42,920 nucleotides of DNA from Solirubrobacterales bacterium (GTDB taxonomy: Bacteria > Actinomycetota > Thermoleophilia > Solirubrobacterales > Solirubrobacteraceae). Each line of letters opens with the position of its first letter. The first letter of the stretch is position 1. The position numbers were made by a program, and so were the translations under genes. Below are positions 24,668 through 34,141 of this stretch, one piece after another. The notes under the pieces were generated by a model. It saw only the letters and a program-made list of their open reading frames with translations, was not told the origin of the DNA and ran no database searches. The stretch spans positions 1 through 42,920 of the forward strand of contig JAOPZB010000107.1 in assembly GCA_025964355.1 (NCBI GenBank). The letters are read 5' to 3'.

Positions 24668-25044
24668 TGCACGAGCTGTCGATCGCCGAGGCTATCGTCG
24701 ATGTCGCGAGGCGGCACGCGCGCGGACGGCGCGTCGTCAAGGTGGATGTGCGCGTGGGGCACCTGCGCCAGGTCGTGCCCGCCTCGCTCGAGTTCGCCTT
24801 CGGCCTGGTCTGTCAGGGCACGGCGCTGGACGGCGCAGAGCTCGTCATCTCGCACGTCGCGGCGGTCGGGCGCTGCCGGGATTGCGGGGTGAAGAGCGTG
24901 CTCGAAGACCTTCCGCTGCGCTGCTCATCGTGCGGCGGGCTCGATCTGGAACTGCTCGCGGGCGATGAGCTGCTGGTCGACGCCCTGGAGCTCGAGGAGG
25001 AAGTGGTGACGAACGAAAGGATCGGACATGGCAGCCACGTTTGA
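24667..25044 (+). CDS. hypA: Hydrogenase nickel incorporation protein HypA
   Basis: MHELSIAEAIVDVA; zinc motifs CRDCG...CSSCGG. Confidence 0.93.
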   Translation: MHELSIAEAIVDVARRHARGRRVVKVDVRVGHLRQVVPASLEFAFGLVCQGTALDGAELVISHVAAVGRCRDCGVKSVLEDLPLRCSSCGGLDLELLAGDELLVDALELEEEVVTNERIGHGSHV

Positions 25045-26083
25045 ACCGAAACCGAGTGGAGTCGAGGAGGTCCACATCCTGTGGATCTCCGAGGGCATGA
25101 GCTGCGACGGCGACTCGGTGTCCATCACGGCCGCCGCACAGCCGAGCATCGAGGACGTGCTGCTCGGTGCCATTCCCGGACTTCCCAAGGTCCATCTGCA
25201 TAACAAAGTCCTCTCGCCGACGCTTGGCGGCGAGGAGTTCCTGCTCCCATTCCGCCAGGCGGCGCGCGGCGAGCTGGACGCGCCCTTCGTGCTCGTGATC
25301 GAGGGCTCGATCCCCAACGAGAAGATCAACGGCGACGGGTACTGGACCTCGTTCGGCAACGACGAGGCGACCGGCGAACCGTTGACGCTTGACTACTGGC
25401 TCGACCGGTTGGCTCCCAAGGCGTGGGGCGTCGTCGCGATAGGCACCTGCGCCACCTACGGCGGCATCCATGCGATGGCCGGCAACCCCACCGGGTGCAT
25501 GGGCCTGGCCGACTATCTCGGCTGGGATTTCCGCTCCGCGGCCGGGCTGCCGATCGTGAACGTTCCCGGGTGCCCGGTGCAACCGGAGAACTTCATGGAG
25601 ACGCTCACCTGGCTGCTGTATCAGGCGGCAGGCCTGGCGCCGACGATCCCGCTGGACGAGGCGCTTCGTCCGCAGTGGATATTCGGCAAGACCGTCCACG
25701 AGGGCTGCGACCGCGCCGGCTACTACGAGCAGGGTGACTTCGCCCTGGACTACAACTCGCCCAAGTGCCTCGTGAAGGCTGGCTGCTGGGGCCCTGTCGT
25801 CAACTGCAACGTGCCCAAGCGCGGATGGATGGCCGGGATCGGCGGCTGCCCGAACGTGGGAGGCATCTGCATCGGCTGCACGATGCCCGGCTTCCCCGAC
25901 AGGTTCATGCCGTTCATGGACGCGCCCCCCGGCAGCAGCGTCTCCGCCGGGATCGGCAGCGTTTACGGGCCGGTGATGCGCAAGCTTCGCAGCATCACCA
26001 ACAAGACCATGAACAAGGAGACGAAGTGGCGGCACAACAGAGGAGAGCTGACCACCGGCTACGAGCCCCGCTGGGGTAACTAG
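25028..26083 (+). CDS. hhyS: [NiFe]-hydrogenase small subunit, group 1h/5 actinobacterial type
   Basis: ISEGMSCDGDSVSITAAAQPSIEDVLLGAIPG, GTCATYGGIHAM, NVPGCPVQPENFMETL, CPNVGGICIGCTMPGFPDRF; no Tat signal; overlaps hypA by 17 nt. Confidence 0.92.
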   Translation: MAATFEPKPSGVEEVHILWISEGMSCDGDSVSITAAAQPSIEDVLLGAIPGLPKVHLHNKVLSPTLGGEEFLLPFRQAARGELDAPFVLVIEGSIPNEKINGDGYWTSFGNDEATGEPLTLDYWLDRLAPKAWGVVAIGTCATYGGIHAMAGNPTGCMGLADYLGWDFRSAAGLPIVNVPGCPVQPENFMETLTWLLYQAAGLAPTIPLDEALRPQWIFGKTVHEGCDRAGYYEQGDFALDYNSPKCLVKAGCWGPVVNCNVPKRGWMAGIGGCPNVGGICIGCTMPGFPDRFMPFMDAPPGSSVSAGIGSVYGPVMRKLRSITNKTMNKETKWRHNRGELTTGYEPRWGN

Positions 26084-26102: not shown

Positions 26103-27893
26103 ATGGCCGTCACGCGCGAGCGCATCAAACCGGAGGCGGGCAAGCTCGTCGACATGTCGTGGGACCCGATCACCCGCATCGTCGGGAACCTCGGGATCTA
26201 CACCAAGATCGACTTCGATAATCGCGAGGTCGTGACCTGCAAGTCCACCTCCTCGATGTTCAGGGGCTACTCCGTCTTCATGAAGGGAAAGGACCCGAGG
26301 GACGCGCATTTCATCACCAGCCGCATCTGCGGAATCTGCGGCGACAACCATGCCGTCTGCTCCTGTTACGCGCAGCAGATGGCATACGGCGTCAAGCCGC
26401 CTCCGCTTGGAGAGTGGATCGTGAACCTCGGCGAGGCGGCCGAGTACATCTTCGACCACATCATCTTCCAGGACAACCTCGTGTTCGTGGACTTCTGCGA
26501 GCAGATGGTGCGCGCGACGAACCCGAGCGTCATGGACAAGGCCGAAAAGACGGAGGCGCCCGGGGCGAACATCCATGGCTACCGCACGATCGGCGACATC
26601 ATGCGCTCCTACAACCCGTTCACCGGGGCGACGTACAAGGAGGCGCTGCACATGAGCCGCATCGGGCGGGAGATGATCTGCCTGATGGAGGGGCGCCACG
26701 TGCATCCCTCGACGATCTATCCAGGGGGGGTGGGCACGGTCGCGACGCCCACGCTGTTCACCGACTACCTCTCGCGACTGCTGCGCTGCTTTGACTTCAT
26801 CAAGTCGGCCGTGGCGATGAACGACGACGTGTTCAACTTCTTCTACGAGGCCCTGCCGGGCTACGAGGAGATCGGGCGCAGACGCATCCTGCTCGGATGC
26901 TGGGGGGCGTGGAACAACCCCGACTTCGTCGACTACGACTACCGCCACATGGACCATTGGGGCAACGAGATGTTCGTGACCCCGGGCGTGGTGGTCGACG
27001 GCGAGCTGGTCACGACGAACCTGGTCGACATCAACCTCGGGATCCGCATCCTGCTCGGCTCCTCCTACTACGAGGACTGGGTCGACGAGGAGACGTTCGT
27101 CTCGCAGGACCCGCTGGGCAATCCTGTCGACAAGCGCCATCCGTGGAACCAGACGACGATTCCCAAGCCCCAGAAACGAGACCTGGAGGGCGGCAACTAC
27201 TCGTGGGTGATGAGCCCGCGCTGGTTCGACAAGCGCACCGGCGACCACCTGGCGCTCGATACCGGTGGCGGCGCGCTGGCGCGGCTGTGGGTCACGGCGC
27301 TCGCCGGCAAGGTCGACACGCCGTTCGTCAAATCGACCGGCTCGAGCGTGCAGATCAACCTGCCGCAGACGCCGAACACGCCCGAACAGACGCTGGAGTG
27401 GAAAGTGCCCCAGTGGTCCAACGCGATCGAGCGTGACCGTGCGCGCATCTACTTCGTCGCCTACTCGGCGGCGATGGCGATGCACTTCCTCGATCGGGCG
27501 ATGACGGAGCTGCGGTCGGGTCACACGAAGGTCTTCGAGGACTTCGAGGTTCCCGACGAGGCCATCGGCTGCGGCTTCCACGAGGCCGTACGGGGCGTGC
27601 TCTCCCACCATATGGTGATCCGCGACGGCAAGATCGCCAACTACCACCCATACCCGCCGACGCCGTGGAACGGCTCCTCGACCGACTCCTACGGCACGCC
27701 GGGACCATACGAGGACGCCGTCTCCGGACAGCCGATCTTCGAGGAGAACCCGCAGGAGAGCTTCCGCGGGATCGACATCATGCGAGCCGTCCGGTCATTC
27801 GACCCGTGCCTGCCCTGCGGCGTGCACATGTACCTCGGCAAAGGCCGGACGCTGCGCCAGGTGCACTCCCCGATGTTCGGCGAGCACGGCTAG
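26103..27893 (+). CDS. hhyL: [NiFe]-hydrogenase large subunit, group 1h/5 actinobacterial type
   Basis: L1 motif RICGICGDNHAVCS; L2 motif DPCLPCGVHMYLGKGRTLRQVHSPMFGEHG; DPITRIVGNLGI. Confidence 0.95.
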   Translation: MAVTRERIKPEAGKLVDMSWDPITRIVGNLGIYTKIDFDNREVVTCKSTSSMFRGYSVFMKGKDPRDAHFITSRICGICGDNHAVCSCYAQQMAYGVKPPPLGEWIVNLGEAAEYIFDHIIFQDNLVFVDFCEQMVRATNPSVMDKAEKTEAPGANIHGYRTIGDIMRSYNPFTGATYKEALHMSRIGREMICLMEGRHVHPSTIYPGGVGTVATPTLFTDYLSRLLRCFDFIKSAVAMNDDVFNFFYEALPGYEEIGRRRILLGCWGAWNNPDFVDYDYRHMDHWGNEMFVTPGVVVDGELVTTNLVDINLGIRILLGSSYYEDWVDEETFVSQDPLGNPVDKRHPWNQTTIPKPQKRDLEGGNYSWVMSPRWFDKRTGDHLALDTGGGALARLWVTALAGKVDTPFVKSTGSSVQINLPQTPNTPEQTLEWKVPQWSNAIERDRARIYFVAYSAAMAMHFLDRAMTELRSGHTKVFEDFEVPDEAIGCGFHEAVRGVLSHHMVIRDGKIANYHPYPPTPWNGSSTDSYGTPGPYEDAVSGQPIFEENPQESFRGIDIMRAVRSFDPCLPCGVHMYLGKGRTLRQVHSPMFGEHG

Positions 27894-27901
27894 GCGCGGC
27901 G

Positions 27902-28786
27902 GTGAGCGAAACGGCACACGACAAGGCCCCCGAGCTGCTCGGCCACGTCGAGGCCCTGCTCGAGCGGATCGACGGGCTGGCAGACCCGTCCGCCCGCGAG
28001 ACCGTCACCGAGGCCGTGCAGGCGCTGCTCGATCTCTACGGCGAGGGCCTCGCCAGGATTGTCGAGGCCGTCTCCGAGCGCGACGACGGCACGATGGCGC
28101 GGGCGCTCGCAGACGACGAGCTGGTGTCGCATCTGCTGCTCGTACACGGATTGCACCCGATCGGAGTCGAGCAGCGGGTGCAGGGCGCCCTCGACGGCGT
28201 CCTGCCATACCTGGAATCGCATGGGGGCGACGTCGAGCTGCTCGGAGTGTCCGATGGCGTCGCGCATCTACGCCTGCAGGGAAGCTGCTCCGGCTGCCCG
28301 TCCTCCTCGATGACCCTCAAGCTCGCCATCGAGGAGGCGATCTTCAAGGCCGCGCCAGACGTCGAGGAGGTTCGCGCCGAGGGCGCTTCGCCGGCCGAGC
28401 CCGGCGAGCCGGGGCTGCTGCAGTTGGAGATGGTCAAGCCGGCGGCGGCACCGTCGGTGTCGCCGGCGGCGTGGGCGATGGCCGGCGGGATGCCGCAGCT
28501 CGCCAACGGCGGAGTGGTGCTCAAGGAGGTCTCGGGCGAGTCGGTGCTGTTCATGCGCCCGAACGGGCGTGTCTACGCATACCGTCCGGTGTGCCCCGGC
28601 TGCGAGCAGTCGCTGGAGCTCGCCACGCTGCGAGCCGGCGAGCTGACGTGCCCCGGCTGCGGCAATCGCTATGACATCCTGCGCGCCGGGCGCTGCCTGG
28701 ATGTCCCGCAGCTGCATCTGCGCCCCGTGCCGCTGCTCGTAGACGACGCCGGCATAGTCAAGGTGGCGCTCGGGGCGGTCGCCTGA
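27902..28786 (+). CDS. Nfu-domain / Rieske-like fusion protein
   Basis: GTG start; LRLQGSCSGCPSSSMTLKLAIEEAI (Nfu CxxC) then VCPGCEQSLELATLRAGELTCPGCGNRYDILRAGRCLDVPQLHLRPVPLLVD. Confidence 0.8.
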   Translation: MSETAHDKAPELLGHVEALLERIDGLADPSARETVTEAVQALLDLYGEGLARIVEAVSERDDGTMARALADDELVSHLLLVHGLHPIGVEQRVQGALDGVLPYLESHGGDVELLGVSDGVAHLRLQGSCSGCPSSSMTLKLAIEEAIFKAAPDVEEVRAEGASPAEPGEPGLLQLEMVKPAAAPSVSPAAWAMAGGMPQLANGGVVLKEVSGESVLFMRPNGRVYAYRPVCPGCEQSLELATLRAGELTCPGCGNRYDILRAGRCLDVPQLHLRPVPLLVDDAGIVKVALGAVA

Positions 28787-28790
28787 GCTC

Positions 28791-29447
28791 ATGGCACCGA
28801 CGGCCGGCACGCTCGCGAACTCCCGCCTGAGGCGACTCGCCCAGCGCCCTGCCGGCGAGGGCATGGCCGCCGCGCCGGACGAGCGCTGCGAGCTGTGCAA
28901 CACCCCGATCACGAGGAGCCACCGCCATCTGCTCGAGCTCTCCTCGCGCGAGCTGCTCTGCACATGCAGGCCCTGCTCGCTGCTGTTCGACCGCGGCGGC
29001 TCGGGTGCAGGCCGCTATAAGCTCGTGCCCGAGCGCCGGCTGCGGCTGGAGAGCTTCTCGATGAGCGATCAGGCCTGGGAGGAGCTCCGCATCCCGGTGG
29101 ACATGGCGTTCTTCTTTCGCAGCAGCGACGCGGAACGCGTGCTCGCCTACTACCCGGGGCCGATGGGCGCGACGGAGTCCCAGCTGGAGCTCCGCTCGTG
29201 GCAGGACCTCGAACGCCGCAACCCGATCCTCGCGGGGCTCGATAGCGACGTCGAGGCGCTGCTCGTCAACCGAGCCCGCGGCGCCGACAGGCAATGGCTC
29301 GTGCCGCTGGACGAGTGCTACGCCCTGGTCGGCGTGATCCGCACCCACTGGCGCGGCCTGACCGGGGGCCGCGAGGTCTGGCAGCAGCTCGAGCGCTTCT
29401 TCGACGAACTCGACAGTCGTGCGCGAAGCGCGACAGAAGGGAGCTGA
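28791..29447 (+). CDS. DUF5947-like hydrogenase-associated protein
   Basis: CELCNTPITRSHRHLLELSSRELLCTCRPCSLLFDRGGSGAGRYKLVPERRL; position in hydrogenase operon. Confidence 0.7.
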   Translation: MAPTAGTLANSRLRRLAQRPAGEGMAAAPDERCELCNTPITRSHRHLLELSSRELLCTCRPCSLLFDRGGSGAGRYKLVPERRLRLESFSMSDQAWEELRIPVDMAFFFRSSDAERVLAYYPGPMGATESQLELRSWQDLERRNPILAGLDSDVEALLVNRARGADRQWLVPLDECYALVGVIRTHWRGLTGGREVWQQLERFFDELDSRARSATEGS

Positions 29448-29449
29448 CG

Positions 29450-29659
29450 ATGGCGAACGTGACGACCGGCCGCCCCTACACGGGCCAAGACAAGCCGACG
29501 CATGTCAAGGGCATCAAAGAGGGCAACGCACCCGGCAACTACGCGAAGATGAAGGGCCACAATCCCGACGGCACCTCCACCGCCGCGCGCTCCACCGGAG
29601 TACACACTGCGGGGGAGGAACCGATCGACCCGAGCATGCCCAACCTCTCACCGGCGTAG
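29450..29659 (+). CDS. 69-aa Gly/Thr/Asn-rich hydrogenase-locus small protein
   Basis: MANVTTGRPYTGQDKPTHVKGIKEGNAPGNYAKMKGHNPDGTSTAARSTGVHTAGEEPIDPSMPNLSPA; tight spacing on both sides. Confidence 0.7.
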   Translation: MANVTTGRPYTGQDKPTHVKGIKEGNAPGNYAKMKGHNPDGTSTAARSTGVHTAGEEPIDPSMPNLSPA

Positions 29660-29666
29660 CGCAGGC

Positions 29667-30338
29667 ATGCCCGCCGTCCCACAGCCGATCGGCGCGCCTG
29701 CGGGCGCGGCGCCGCAGCTGTCCTTCGCGGTGCAGGACGCCGGCGCCGAGCGCTACTCGGCCACCCCGACCCTCAACTTCGCTCTGCAGATCCAGCGCGC
29801 AGGCGGCGGGCCGGTGCGTTCGATCCTGCTCGACACCCAGATCCAGATCGCCGCGCGACGCCGCTCCTATGGCGAGGCCGAGCAGGCGTGGCTGGTGGAG
29901 CTGTTCGGCACGCCCGAGCGTTGGAGCACCACGCTGCGGACCCTGCCATGGACCCGCACGACGCTCGTCGTGCCGCCCTTCACCGACACGACCGAGGTGA
30001 CCATCCCGGTGCCCTGCTCATACGACCTCGAGGCCAACGCCGACAACTATCTCTCCGGTCTGCAGAGCGGAGAGGTGCCGCTCGAGTTCCTGTTCTCGGG
30101 CTCGGTCTTCTACGCGGGCGAGGGGGGAATGCTGCAGACGGCCCGCATCTCTTGGGACTCCGAAGCGGAGTACCGCCTGCCCGTGAGCGTCTGGCGGGAG
30201 GCGATGGACCGACACTTCCCCGGCGCCGCCTGGCTTCGCCTGGGGCGCCCCGCCTACGAGCGGCTTCGCGCCTACAAAGCGGAGCACGGGCTGAGAACCC
30301 TGGAGGACGCGGTCGTTCATCTGGTGGGGGAGGGATAG
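29667..30338 (+). CDS. DUF6084-like hydrogenase-associated protein
   Basis: PQLSFAVQDAGAERYSATPTLNFALQIQRAGGGPVRSILLDTQIQIAARRRSYGEAEQAWLVELFG. Confidence 0.65.
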   Translation: MPAVPQPIGAPAGAAPQLSFAVQDAGAERYSATPTLNFALQIQRAGGGPVRSILLDTQIQIAARRRSYGEAEQAWLVELFGTPERWSTTLRTLPWTRTTLVVPPFTDTTEVTIPVPCSYDLEANADNYLSGLQSGEVPLEFLFSGSVFYAGEGGMLQTARISWDSEAEYRLPVSVWREAMDRHFPGAAWLRLGRPAYERLRAYKAEHGLRTLEDAVVHLVGEG

Positions 30339-30341
30339 CGC

Positions 30342-31289
30342 ATGGGAGCCGACCCGGTCGGCCGCATCGCCGACGCCGTCCTGTACGAGGGCTACCTGCT
30401 TTGGCCCTACCGCAAGTCTGCGCTCAAGAACCAGCAGCGCTTCACCTTCGGCGGCGTCCATCCGCCCGCGTGGGACGACTCGTCCGTCGTGCAGACCCAG
30501 GTGCTGCTGGAGGGCGGCCGCGACGCGAGGGTGGAGGTCCGCGTGCGCTTCCTCCAGCTGCTGCGCCGGCAGGTGTACTCGGGCTCGTGCGCCGGGTCGG
30601 CGCCCGAGCCCGTCGAGGAGCTCGAGCTGGGAGGGCAGCGCTGGGTCTCATGGGAGGAGGCGACCGAGCGCGAGGTGTCGCCCGGGCCCATCGACGTGCC
30701 CGGCGGAGAGGAGCGCGAGGAGATACCCGGCGGCGCGATCGTGCGTTCGTGGCGCGCGCTGCACGGCAGCGTGGAGCTCTCGCGCGAGCCACTTCGATCA
30801 GACCTGTCGCGCGTCACCGTACGCGTGGAGAACACGAGCGGCTGGTCGGGATCGACGCGCGAGGATGCGCTTCGCCAGACGTTCTGCTCGACCCACGTCG
30901 TCCTCGGGGCCGGTGACGGCGCGTGGGTGTCGCTGACCGATCCGCCGTGTGGCCTGCGGGCCCAGGCGGCGGCGTGCGAGAACATCGGGCTATGGCCGGT
31001 GCTCGTCGGCGAGCCCTCGCAGACGCGGACGATGCTCGCCTCCCCGATCATCCTGCCGGATCACCCTCGGATCGCCCCCGAGAGCCCCGGGGACCTGTTC
31101 GACTCGTCGGAGATCGACCAGATGCTCGTGCTGAACATCCTCGCGATGACCGACGAGGAGCGCCGGGAGATGCGCGACTGCGATCCTCGCGCCCGGGAGA
31201 TCCTCGAGCGCACGGAGGCCCTCGGCCCTGAGGACATGATGCGGCTCAACGGCGCTGTTCGAGAGCTGGGGCTGGCACGCTCGCGATGA
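30342..31289 (+). CDS. Uncharacterised hydrogenase-locus protein (315 aa)
   Basis: MGADPVGRIADAVLYEGYLLWPYRKSALKNQQRFTFGGVHPPAW...DLFDSSEIDQMLVLNILAMTDEERREMRDCDPRAREILERTE; overlaps protease gene by 4 nt. Confidence 0.75.
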   Translation: MGADPVGRIADAVLYEGYLLWPYRKSALKNQQRFTFGGVHPPAWDDSSVVQTQVLLEGGRDARVEVRVRFLQLLRRQVYSGSCAGSAPEPVEELELGGQRWVSWEEATEREVSPGPIDVPGGEEREEIPGGAIVRSWRALHGSVELSREPLRSDLSRVTVRVENTSGWSGSTREDALRQTFCSTHVVLGAGDGAWVSLTDPPCGLRAQAAACENIGLWPVLVGEPSQTRTMLASPIILPDHPRIAPESPGDLFDSSEIDQMLVLNILAMTDEERREMRDCDPRAREILERTEALGPEDMMRLNGAVRELGLARSR

Positions 31290-32146
31290 TCGACGAGAGG
31301 CCGCCATGGGAGGAGCTCGAGCGGCGTGGGCCCGACTTCGTGGAGGTGGGCGGCGTGGCCATCCGCGCTGGAAGCAGGGTGCGACTCGCTCCACGAAACA
31401 CCAGCGGAGACGTCTTCGAGCTTGCGCTCGACGGGCGCACGGCAATCGTGCAGGAGGTCCTCGAGGACTTCGACGGCCGCATCCAGCTCGCCGTCACCGT
31501 ATCGGACGATCCCGGCCAGGACATGGGTGCGCTGAGGCGCCCCGGGCACCGCTTCTTCTTCGACCCGCTGGAGGTCGAGCCGCTGGAGGTGCAGGCCGAC
31601 GCCGCGGGGCAGCCGGCGCGGCGGCGCGTACTGGTGGCAGGGATCGGCAACCTCTTCCTCGGCGACGACGGCTGGGGGGTCGCACTCGCCGCACGCCTGG
31701 CGGCCCGCGCTCTCCCGCCCGGCGTCGAGGTGGTCGACTTCGGGATCCGCGGGATGGACCTCGCCTATGCCATGCAGGACGGCTATGAGGCGGTCGTCAT
31801 GCTCGACGCCACGCCGCGCGGCGAGCGGGCGGGGACGCTGTACGTGATCGAGCCCGAGCTCGACGAGGTCGACGCGACGGTGGACGCCCACGGCATGAAC
31901 CCCGTGAAGGTGCTGGCGCTCGCGCGCACGCTCGGCGCCTCCTCGCTTCCGCGCACGCTGATCGTCGGCTGCGAGCCACAGACGCGGATGAGCGCCGAGG
32001 AGGAGTTCGTCGTCGCCGAGTTGACCGAGCCGGTGCGCGCGTCGCTCGATCCGGCGGTGAGCCTGGTCGAACAGCTGCTGACCGACCTCACGACATCAGA
32101 TGGTGACCCGAGTAGTCCAGTGAAAGGGAAGGAACAACGATCATGA
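31286..32146 (+). CDS. [NiFe]-hydrogenase maturation protease (HycI/HupD-type) with about 110-aa N-terminal extension
   Basis: VLVAGIGNLFLGDDGWGVALAARL, VEVVDFGIRGMDLAYAMQDGYEAVVMLDATPRG, HGMNPVKVLALARTLG. Confidence 0.88.
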   Translation: MIDERPPWEELERRGPDFVEVGGVAIRAGSRVRLAPRNTSGDVFELALDGRTAIVQEVLEDFDGRIQLAVTVSDDPGQDMGALRRPGHRFFFDPLEVEPLEVQADAAGQPARRRVLVAGIGNLFLGDDGWGVALAARLAARALPPGVEVVDFGIRGMDLAYAMQDGYEAVVMLDATPRGERAGTLYVIEPELDEVDATVDAHGMNPVKVLALARTLGASSLPRTLIVGCEPQTRMSAEEEFVVAELTEPVRASLDPAVSLVEQLLTDLTTSDGDPSSPVKGKEQRS

Positions 32147-32273: not shown

Positions 32274-32960
32274 ATGCACCGGGTCAAAGTCAGGGTCGTA
32301 GAGGATGCGCTCGACGCCAACAACACGATCGCACGCGCCAACAGGCAGGACTTCGACCGCGCAGGGGTGACCGTGGTGAACCTGATGAGCGCTCCGGGCG
32401 CAGGCAAGACAGCGCTGCTGGAGCGCGTGCTCGCCGACACCGGCGATGTGCGCATAGGCGTGCTCGAGGGCGACGTCGAGGGCTCTCTCGACGCCGAGCG
32501 GCTCGCCTCGCTGCATGTCCCGGTGGTTCAGCTGAACACAGGTGCCGGTTTCGGCGGGGAGTGTCACCTGGACGCGAACATGGTGCGCTCCGCGCTCGGC
32601 TCGCTGCCGCTTGCGGACATCGACATGCTGATCATCGAGAACGTCGGCAATCTGGTGTGTCCGGCTGAGTTCCGTGTGGGCGAGGATGTCCGCGCGATGG
32701 TCTGCTCGGTCGCCGAGGGGGAGGACAAGCCGCTGAAGTACCCCCTCATGTTCCGCGCCTGTGAGCTGGCGATCGTGAACAAGATCGATCTCCTGCCGCA
32801 CACAGACGTGGACCTCGACACGCTGCTCGGCAACCTCCACGCGGTGCATCCCGGAATCGAGCAGCTGCTGACGAGCGCCCGTACCGGCGAGGGGGTGGAC
32901 GCGTTGCGCGACTGGCTGCTGGTACGCGCCAGCCGCAGTGAGGCGCACGCGGTGGCGTGA
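32274..32960 (+). CDS. hypB: Hydrogenase nickel incorporation GTPase HypB
   Basis: VTVVNLMSAPGAGKTALLERVLAD, VGVLEGDVEGSLDAERL-type segment, GGECHLDANMV, MLIIENVGNLVCPAEFRVGE, NKIDLLPH. Confidence 0.95.
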   Translation: MHRVKVRVVEDALDANNTIARANRQDFDRAGVTVVNLMSAPGAGKTALLERVLADTGDVRIGVLEGDVEGSLDAERLASLHVPVVQLNTGAGFGGECHLDANMVRSALGSLPLADIDMLIIENVGNLVCPAEFRVGEDVRAMVCSVAEGEDKPLKYPLMFRACELAIVNKIDLLPHTDVDLDTLLGNLHAVHPGIEQLLTSARTGEGVDALRDWLLVRASRSEAHAVA

Positions 32961-34141
32961 TGCAGGTGCTCGCGCTCGCCGCCGCCGAGCGTCGCCGGAC
33001 GGCCGGCGAGGCGTTCTTCGGCGGCCAGGCCGAGCGCATCTCCCACCTATGCCACCTGATGGCCGAGCGCTTCGCGCGGGGCGGTCGGCTGCTGGCCTTC
33101 GGGGAGGGGCCGGTCGCGCGGTCGGATGCGCGTCACGTCGCGGTGGAGTTCGTTCATCCGGTGATCGTCGGCAAGCGCGCGCTGCCGGCGCTCGCGCTGA
33201 CGCCCGAGGGCGGGCCCCTCCCGGCACAGCTGAAACTGCTGGCGGAGCCCGAGGACATCGCGCTGGCTTTTGGCGAACACCCCGAAATGCTCGCGGCGGT
33301 CAACACGGCGCGGCTGCGCGGCTGCCTGACCATGTCGGGGTCCCACGTGGGGGCGGAGTGGGAGCTCGTACCGGAGGACGATGACCCGTTCGTCGCACAG
33401 GAGCTCGTCGAGACGCTCTATCACGTGCTGTGGGAGCTGGTGCATGTCTTCTTCGAGCATCAGGGGTTGCTGAAGGGGCGCATCCAGCGCACCGTCCACG
33501 ACGCGGGCGCGTCGAGCTTCCTGTATCCGTTCCTCGGACAGCGTGAGGACGGCCTCGAGTCGGTGCTCGCGGACGTGCGGGCATCCGTGCTGGCCAAGGC
33601 CGCCGAGGCCTCCGATCTGCGTACGCAGACGCTGTGCGAGGGGGAGGACGAGCTGCGCTCCACCGCGCGGGCGATGCGCTCGCGCCTGGAGGCCGGTGGC
33701 CGCGTCCTGGCGCTCGGAAACGGCGGGTCGGCGACCGATGCGATGGACGCCGTCGCGGACCTGCGGCTGCCGCCGGCGAGGTGGCCGGCGCGCGCGGCGC
33801 TCGACCTGACCGAGGACCCGGCGATCATCACGGCGATCGCCAACGACGTGGGCGAGGACGCGATCTTCTCGCGCCAGATCATCGCCCAGGGCCGCGAGGA
33901 CGACACGCTGCTCGCGTTCTCGACCAGTGGCGGGTCGCGCAACGTCCTGGCCGCTCTCGCCGAGGCCCGTCAGCGCCGCCTACTGACCGTCGCCCTCGTC
34001 GGCTACGACGGGGGGCGCATCGCCGCCGAGGGACTCGCCGACCACGTGATCATCACCCGATCGGAGCACATTCCGCGGATCCAGGAGGCGCAGGCGAGCG
34101 CCTGGCACGTGCTGCGCGAGCTCCTGGAGACACCTCTGTGA
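32957..34141 (+). CDS. Tandem SIS-domain protein, second domain GmhA-like
   Basis: GGRLLAFGEGPVARSDARHVAVEFVHPVIVGKRA (degenerate SIS) then ALGNGGSATDAMDAVADLR, LLAFSTSGGSRNVLAALAEARQR, RSEHIPRIQEAQASAWHVL. Confidence 0.8.
   Translation: MMQVLALAAAERRRTAGEAFFGGQAERISHLCHLMAERFARGGRLLAFGEGPVARSDARHVAVEFVHPVIVGKRALPALALTPEGGPLPAQLKLLAEPEDIALAFGEHPEMLAAVNTARLRGCLTMSGSHVGAEWELVPEDDDPFVAQELVETLYHVLWELVHVFFEHQGLLKGRIQRTVHDAGASSFLYPFLGQREDGLESVLADVRASVLAKAAEASDLRTQTLCEGEDELRSTARAMRSRLEAGGRVLALGNGGSATDAMDAVADLRLPPARWPARAALDLTEDPAIITAIANDVGEDAIFSRQIIAQGREDDTLLAFSTSGGSRNVLAALAEARQRRLLTVALVGYDGGRIAAEGLADHVIITRSEHIPRIQEAQASAWHVLRELLETPL

Follow-up and report, generated by a model that had tools for sequence, protein, structure and literature searches.

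The hhyE locus

The stretch analysed here (the window) comprises 42,920 nucleotides of contig JAOPZB010000107.1 from a Solirubrobacterales bacterium, and its forward strand carries an operon for a high-affinity-type (group 1h) [NiFe]-hydrogenase. The subject of this report is hhyE, an open reading frame (ORF) of 294 amino acids that opens with GTG at position 27902 and whose stop codon ends at 28786, exactly as first annotated. The gene lies directly downstream of hhyL, the large-subunit gene (26103–27893; PF00374), with a gap of 8 nt between the hhyL stop at 27893 and the GTG. The small-subunit gene hhyS (25028–26083; Pfam Oxidored_q6 and NiFe_hyd_SSU_C) precedes hhyL. On the 3´ side, hhyE is followed by the genes of a DUF5947 protein (28791–29447; PF19372, 250 bits) and a DUF6084 protein (29667–30338; PF19562, 270 bits), and then by those of a maturation protease and hypB. 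The order S-L-E-DUF5947-DUF6084, in which the DUF5947 gene is a conserved neighbour of hhyE and the DUF6084 gene a conserved operon member, is also present in the annotated plasmids of Mycobacterium intracellulare and Cupriavidus necator, and hhyE thus has the position that it holds in annotated group 1h operons. Both plasmid records label the group 1h small subunit "HypE". In the PDB, HhyL is matched best by C. necator HofG (5aa5, 1020 bits), and it shares 73% identity with its C. necator H16 counterpart. HhyS shares ~64–85% identity with most other group 1h loci and ~54–57% with one clade (L204–L207).

Judged by its sequence, the window protein is HhyE, which is already published for M. smegmatis. 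Islam et al. 2019 described HhyE and HucE in that organism, with an Nfu-type CxxC in both proteins and with two C-terminal CxxC motifs in HhyE versus a Rieske motif in HucE (PMC6883350). The M. smegmatis protein, MSMEG_2718, has the same operon place, Nfu CxxC and two C-terminal CxxC motifs (PMC6883350), and on the tree made here mycobacterial homologues share the Cys4 clade with the window protein. The window protein differs in belonging to another lineage, where its nearest relatives are Solirubrobacterales metagenome-assembled genomes (MAGs). The HhyE motifs and the two roles weighed below are therefore already in Islam et al. 2019; to read the C-terminal domain explicitly as Rieske with exchanged ligands is a step beyond that paper.

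HhyE is an Nfu protein with a ligand-swapped Rieske domain

HhyE consists of three parts: an N-terminal helical domain, an Nfu domain with a CxxC motif, and a C-terminal Rieske-fold domain. The helical domain (approximately residues 1–86; 27902–28159), which the first-pass annotation missed, matches no Pfam domain and contains four modelled α-helices (residues 5–24, 29–60, 64–71 and 73–81) that span approximately residues 5–85. The Nfu (NifU C-terminal-like) domain (residues 88–160; 28163–28381) is matched by PF01106 with 78.8 bits over residues 93–157, and its fold matches the Nfu proteins 2z51 and 2m5o; 2jnv and 1xhj are further PDB matches. With its CxxC, it has the make-up of an Nfu cluster carrier. 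The C-terminal domain (residues 189–291; 28466–28774) is matched over residues 191–272 by the Rieske family PF00355, which scores 27.5 bits (cut-off, 20.3) although the His ligands are absent. A recent fusion and an annotation artefact were rejected because proteins of this build are found in many phyla.

The AlphaFold2 model, which was built from a 64-sequence alignment, has a mean predicted local distance difference test (pLDDT) score of 88.5 and reaches ~96 over the C-terminal domain. In a Foldseek search, the best PDB matches of this domain were the Rieske ferredoxins 5bok and 2qpz, with a template modelling (TM) score of 0.82 on the target. The 50 best structure matches comprised Rieske and Nfu folds only, and neither a rubredoxin nor a zinc-ribbon fold was among them. 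The C-terminal domain is thus confidently predicted to adopt the Rieske fold, and four Cys take the positions of its ligands. The first-pass annotation, which had proposed an Nfu domain joined to a Rieske-like domain with Cys for His and a structural comparison with Rieske, rubredoxin and zinc-ribbon folds, is borne out in its anatomy by Pfam, the model and the PDB fold matches alike. The PDB yielded no HhyE or HucE chain.

The Nfu motif is C129-x2-C132 (28286–28297) and the C-terminal motif is C231-x2-C234-x15-C250-x2-C253. The first knuckle, C231-P-G-C234 (28592–28603), occupies the place of the Rieske CxH, and the second, C250-P-G-C253 (28649–28660), occupies that of the CxxH. The Rieske CxH...CxxH ligand set is therefore absent from the window protein, and a rubredoxin-like Cys4 set made of two CxxC knuckles is present in its stead. 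In 64 HhyE homologues from several phyla, C132, C231, C234 and C250 never vary and C129 almost never does, and this pattern, as aligned, is not attributable to chance. C253 is replaced only in a subgroup from Verrucomicrobiota and Bacteroidota, which reads CxxC...CPxGH (Cys3His) apart from one CxC case (L065, L068, L071, L076, L078, L082, L085, L086, L088 and L101). The CPxGH variant is new here, as are the confident Rieske-fold prediction and the spacing match to an engineered ferredoxin described below.

HhyE and HucE differ by a His-to-Cys switch

HucE, the Nfu-Rieske protein of group 2a operons, is a full-length homologue of HhyE with the same three-part build. It differs in having kept the Rieske ligands: all 11 HucE-type proteins on the tree read CxH...CxxH, including a homologue (L162) from a genome of family group f32, a group shared with mycobacterial-type HhyE rows. 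The HucE homologues examined (L156–L164) do not match the CxH(x15-18)CxxC motif printed for HucE in PMC6883350; they read CxH...CxxH.

Trees were inferred with "quick" searches and supported by the Shimodaira–Hasegawa-like approximate likelihood ratio test (SH-aLRT) only. With the motif columns left out, the window protein groups with HhyE and not with HucE (SH-aLRT 98 for the HhyE branch). Each ligand class then forms one side of a branch, except for the Cys4 class, within which the Cys3His group and the truncated rows are nested. On this motif-free tree, the His-to-Cys switch is seen, newly here, to separate HhyE from HucE. Gene exchange or two origins are possible for the CPxGH form, because the HhyL tree separates the Verrucomicrobiota rows from the Bacteroidota rows.

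A third Nfu-Rieske set was also observed (L022–L024, L134–L139 and L169–L172). Many of its members adjoin a different hydrogenase (38–42% to HhyL). This set lacks the first His ligand and reads CPWHNC or CPWHGC (C...CPWHxC), with the exception of L137, which has canonical ligands.

The metal modules are lost repeatedly while the hydrogenase is retained

The distribution of HhyE was followed in a set of species-representative genomes, in which many loci are MAG fragments and locus counts include near-duplicates between searches. Searching from HhyL rather than HhyE, we found group 1h in 28 of 348 Actinomycetota genomes, of which approximately 20 have a Cys4 HhyE, five a short HhyE and one a fused form, and two are unreadable. 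The Nfu CxxC is also absent in four of the five short forms. The phylum search on the Verrucomicrobiota side returned the seed genome only, among 243. In plasmid operons, PHG066 of C. necator (192 aa), the Methylocystis parvus protein and six streptomycete records lack both the C-terminal domain and the CxxC, and some keep a CxC; one further homologue (L197) likewise lacks the C-terminal domain and the Nfu CxxC. PHG066, from the actinobacterial-type hydrogenase operon of strain H16, still shares with the window protein its operon position and the homologous helical and Nfu-fold domains.

The short forms are true homologues (E 1e-22 to 1e-34, where shuffled sequences reached no better than 2.7). 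The N-terminal helical domain is retained in every family member examined, metal-less ones included, and is matched by profile in the short homologues with E 1e-13 to 1e-25. A six-frame search near these genes found no remnant of the C-terminal domain (best stray match 9.5 bits), which excludes frameshifts and split genes. A compensating change in the cluster ligands of HhyS was also considered and none was seen, since all the loci share one set of HhyS cluster cysteines. Mapped on the HhyL tree, which is independent of HhyE, the CxxC label requires 5 changes, of which at least 4 are forced, and the C-terminal label requires 6. As far as sequences tell, the C-terminal domain, often together with the Nfu CxxC, has been lost several times while hhySL and the HhyS cysteines stayed, a pattern reported here for the first time.

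Both modules are lost in 13 records and only the C-terminal domain in 7, several of which are near-duplicates. The CxxC is lost while the C-terminal knuckles stay in one case only (L052). Because such a loss almost never occurs, the pattern suggests that the two metal modules may work together. In the fused form (L191; G163:C308), the HhyE frame runs into the DUF6084 protein, and most of the Cys4 domain and DUF5947 are missing; its sequence looks like an in-frame deletion and fusion or an assembly error.

Other genes of the operon

The DUF5947 protein has cysteines of its own in CxxC and CTCRPC motifs, and a PDB search with it found no relative. According to PMC6883350, MSMEG_2717, which adjoins hhyE in M. 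smegmatis, is related to PHG067, a once-proposed electron acceptor. PHG067 carries a DUF5947 annotation. A 69-aa ORF (29450–29659) between the DUF5947 and DUF6084 genes and a 315-aa operon ORF (30342–31289) have no Pfam or NCBIfam match. The hydrogenase maturation protease (HycI; 31286–32146) bears an N-terminal extension of ~110 aa without a domain match. The first 215 aa of a SIS-domain protein (32957–34141) match no family; SIS proteins turn up repeatedly in group 1h and 2a operons.

The metal at the C-terminal site

The four Cys of HhyE probably bind a single Fe or Zn in a rubredoxin-like manner, which is likelier than a [2Fe-2S] cluster because the ligand spacing equals that of an engineered Fe(Cys)4 protein. 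In the archaeal Rieske ferredoxin (ARF), the H44I/K45C/H64C triple mutant forms a mononuclear, rubredoxin-like Fe(Cys)4 site in the Rieske scaffold, given as Fe/Zn in the figure legend (PMC2946596). Its ligands, Cys42, Cys45, Cys61 and Cys64, are arranged as C-x2-C-x15-C-x2-C, as are residues 231, 234, 250 and 253 of HhyE. The two proteins thus share scaffold and spacing; the ARF protein is, however, a laboratory construct in which the mononuclear metal has been shown, whereas it is predicted for HhyE. Of the site types named by the first-pass annotation, the rubredoxin-like and zinc options gain from this comparison and the [2Fe-2S] option loses. A [2Fe-2S] cluster might be held by four thiolates on an Fe-S scaffold, and a three-Cys one-His ARF variant did assemble one of low potential, but in ARF the HhyE spacing gave a mononuclear site and cluster assembly largely failed in the H44C/H64C double mutant (PMC2946596, Iwasaki review), which leaves a [2Fe-2S] site very doubtful.

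Knuckles of the CPxCG and CPxGH type are characteristic of zinc sites. A pair of structural zinc knuckles, with a domain that only binds HhySL and an Nfu domain that does the chemistry, would agree with this, with the Cys3His set found in Verrucomicrobiota and Bacteroidota and with the Fe/Zn description of the ARF mutant site (PMC2946596). Against this, the domain has the Rieske fold and so descends from an Fe-S scaffold, and the same protein also has a cluster-carrier domain; we regard a purely structural zinc role as rather unlikely.

Assembly factor or electron relay

On balance, we consider it moderately probable that the Cys4 site of HhyE is mononuclear Fe or Zn and that the protein serves as a dedicated assembly factor whose metal modules are accessory. 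The helical and Nfu-fold core would dock on the HhySL precursor, most likely on HhyS. In full-length members, HhyS would receive an Fe-S cluster from the Nfu CxxC, with the Cys4 domain assisting or protecting the transfer in air, much as HoxR does for the membrane-bound hydrogenase of C. necator. The metal modules would be accessory, and lineages that lost them would retain the core. HoxR has a rubredoxin fold, not a Rieske fold, and no Nfu fusion, and it is likened to HhyE by description rather than by sequence. It is a rubredoxin-like protein encoded with a hydrogenase and takes part in maturing the small subunit of the C. necator membrane-bound enzyme under aerobic conditions (PMC10583674).

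Islam et al. 2019 proposed electron transfer for HhyE, citing conserved metal motifs, the place with the structural genes, co-localisation on native gels and the lack of a cytochrome b, and left maturation as an option (PMC6883350). As an electron-transfer subunit, HhyE would pass electrons from HhyS through the Cys4 centre, the Nfu cluster or both to menaquinone. The first-pass annotation had likewise suggested a route from HhySL to the quinone pool, and had set against its proposals a deletion mutant with normal H2 uptake. Deletion of hhyE in M. smegmatis instead lowered H2 oxidation 8.4-fold and abolished in-gel activity with nitroblue tetrazolium (NBT), an artificial acceptor that might be expected to rescue a mere missing relay (PMC6883350). 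Purified Huc, whose operon encodes the paralogue HucE, contains HucL, HucS and HucM only and reduces menaquinone directly (PMC10017518). Several group 1h lineages lack the Cys4 domain, the Nfu CxxC or both while their HhyS cysteines are unchanged. Among them is C. necator, whose operon has the metal-less PHG066 and whose enzyme has been purified and its activity measured with an artificial acceptor. An obligatory relay through the Cys4 site is unlikely because the metal modules have been lost repeatedly with hhySL and the HhyS cysteines intact, C. necator included; and an assembly factor is preferred because NBT did not rescue, Huc works without HucE as a subunit, HoxR offers a precedent and the C. 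necator homologue is metal-less. We therefore judge an electron-transfer subunit to be improbable.

Several points weigh against the assembly-factor interpretation. On native gels, HhyE is found together with HhyL and HhyS, a result cited in PMC6883350 that would also fit a subunit. The Huc result concerns the enzyme of HucE, not Hhy. Another protein may relay electrons or supply clusters where the metals are lost, and loss elsewhere is no proof of dispensability here. For most lineages whose HhyE lacks the metal sites, a working enzyme is assumed because the operons are intact. The CPxGH variant would suit zinc equally.

Implications

More tentatively, HhyE could be a natural conversion of a Rieske [2Fe-2S] site into a mononuclear Cys4 site with the spacing engineered in the laboratory, in a family whose ancestral function may have been that of a metal-independent assembly chaperone (helical domain and Nfu fold) with accessory, repeatedly discarded metal modules. 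The Rieske-to-Cys4 switch provides natural sequences with which to study what makes a protein scaffold take up a cluster or one metal ion. The repeated loss of the HhyE metal sites with unchanged hydrogenase cysteines speaks against the favoured relay model, and C. necator, Methylocystis and Streptomycetaceae are organisms in which the question of its role can be put to the test. HhyE itself is an already described helper protein of the hydrogenase with which soil bacteria can live on atmospheric H2.
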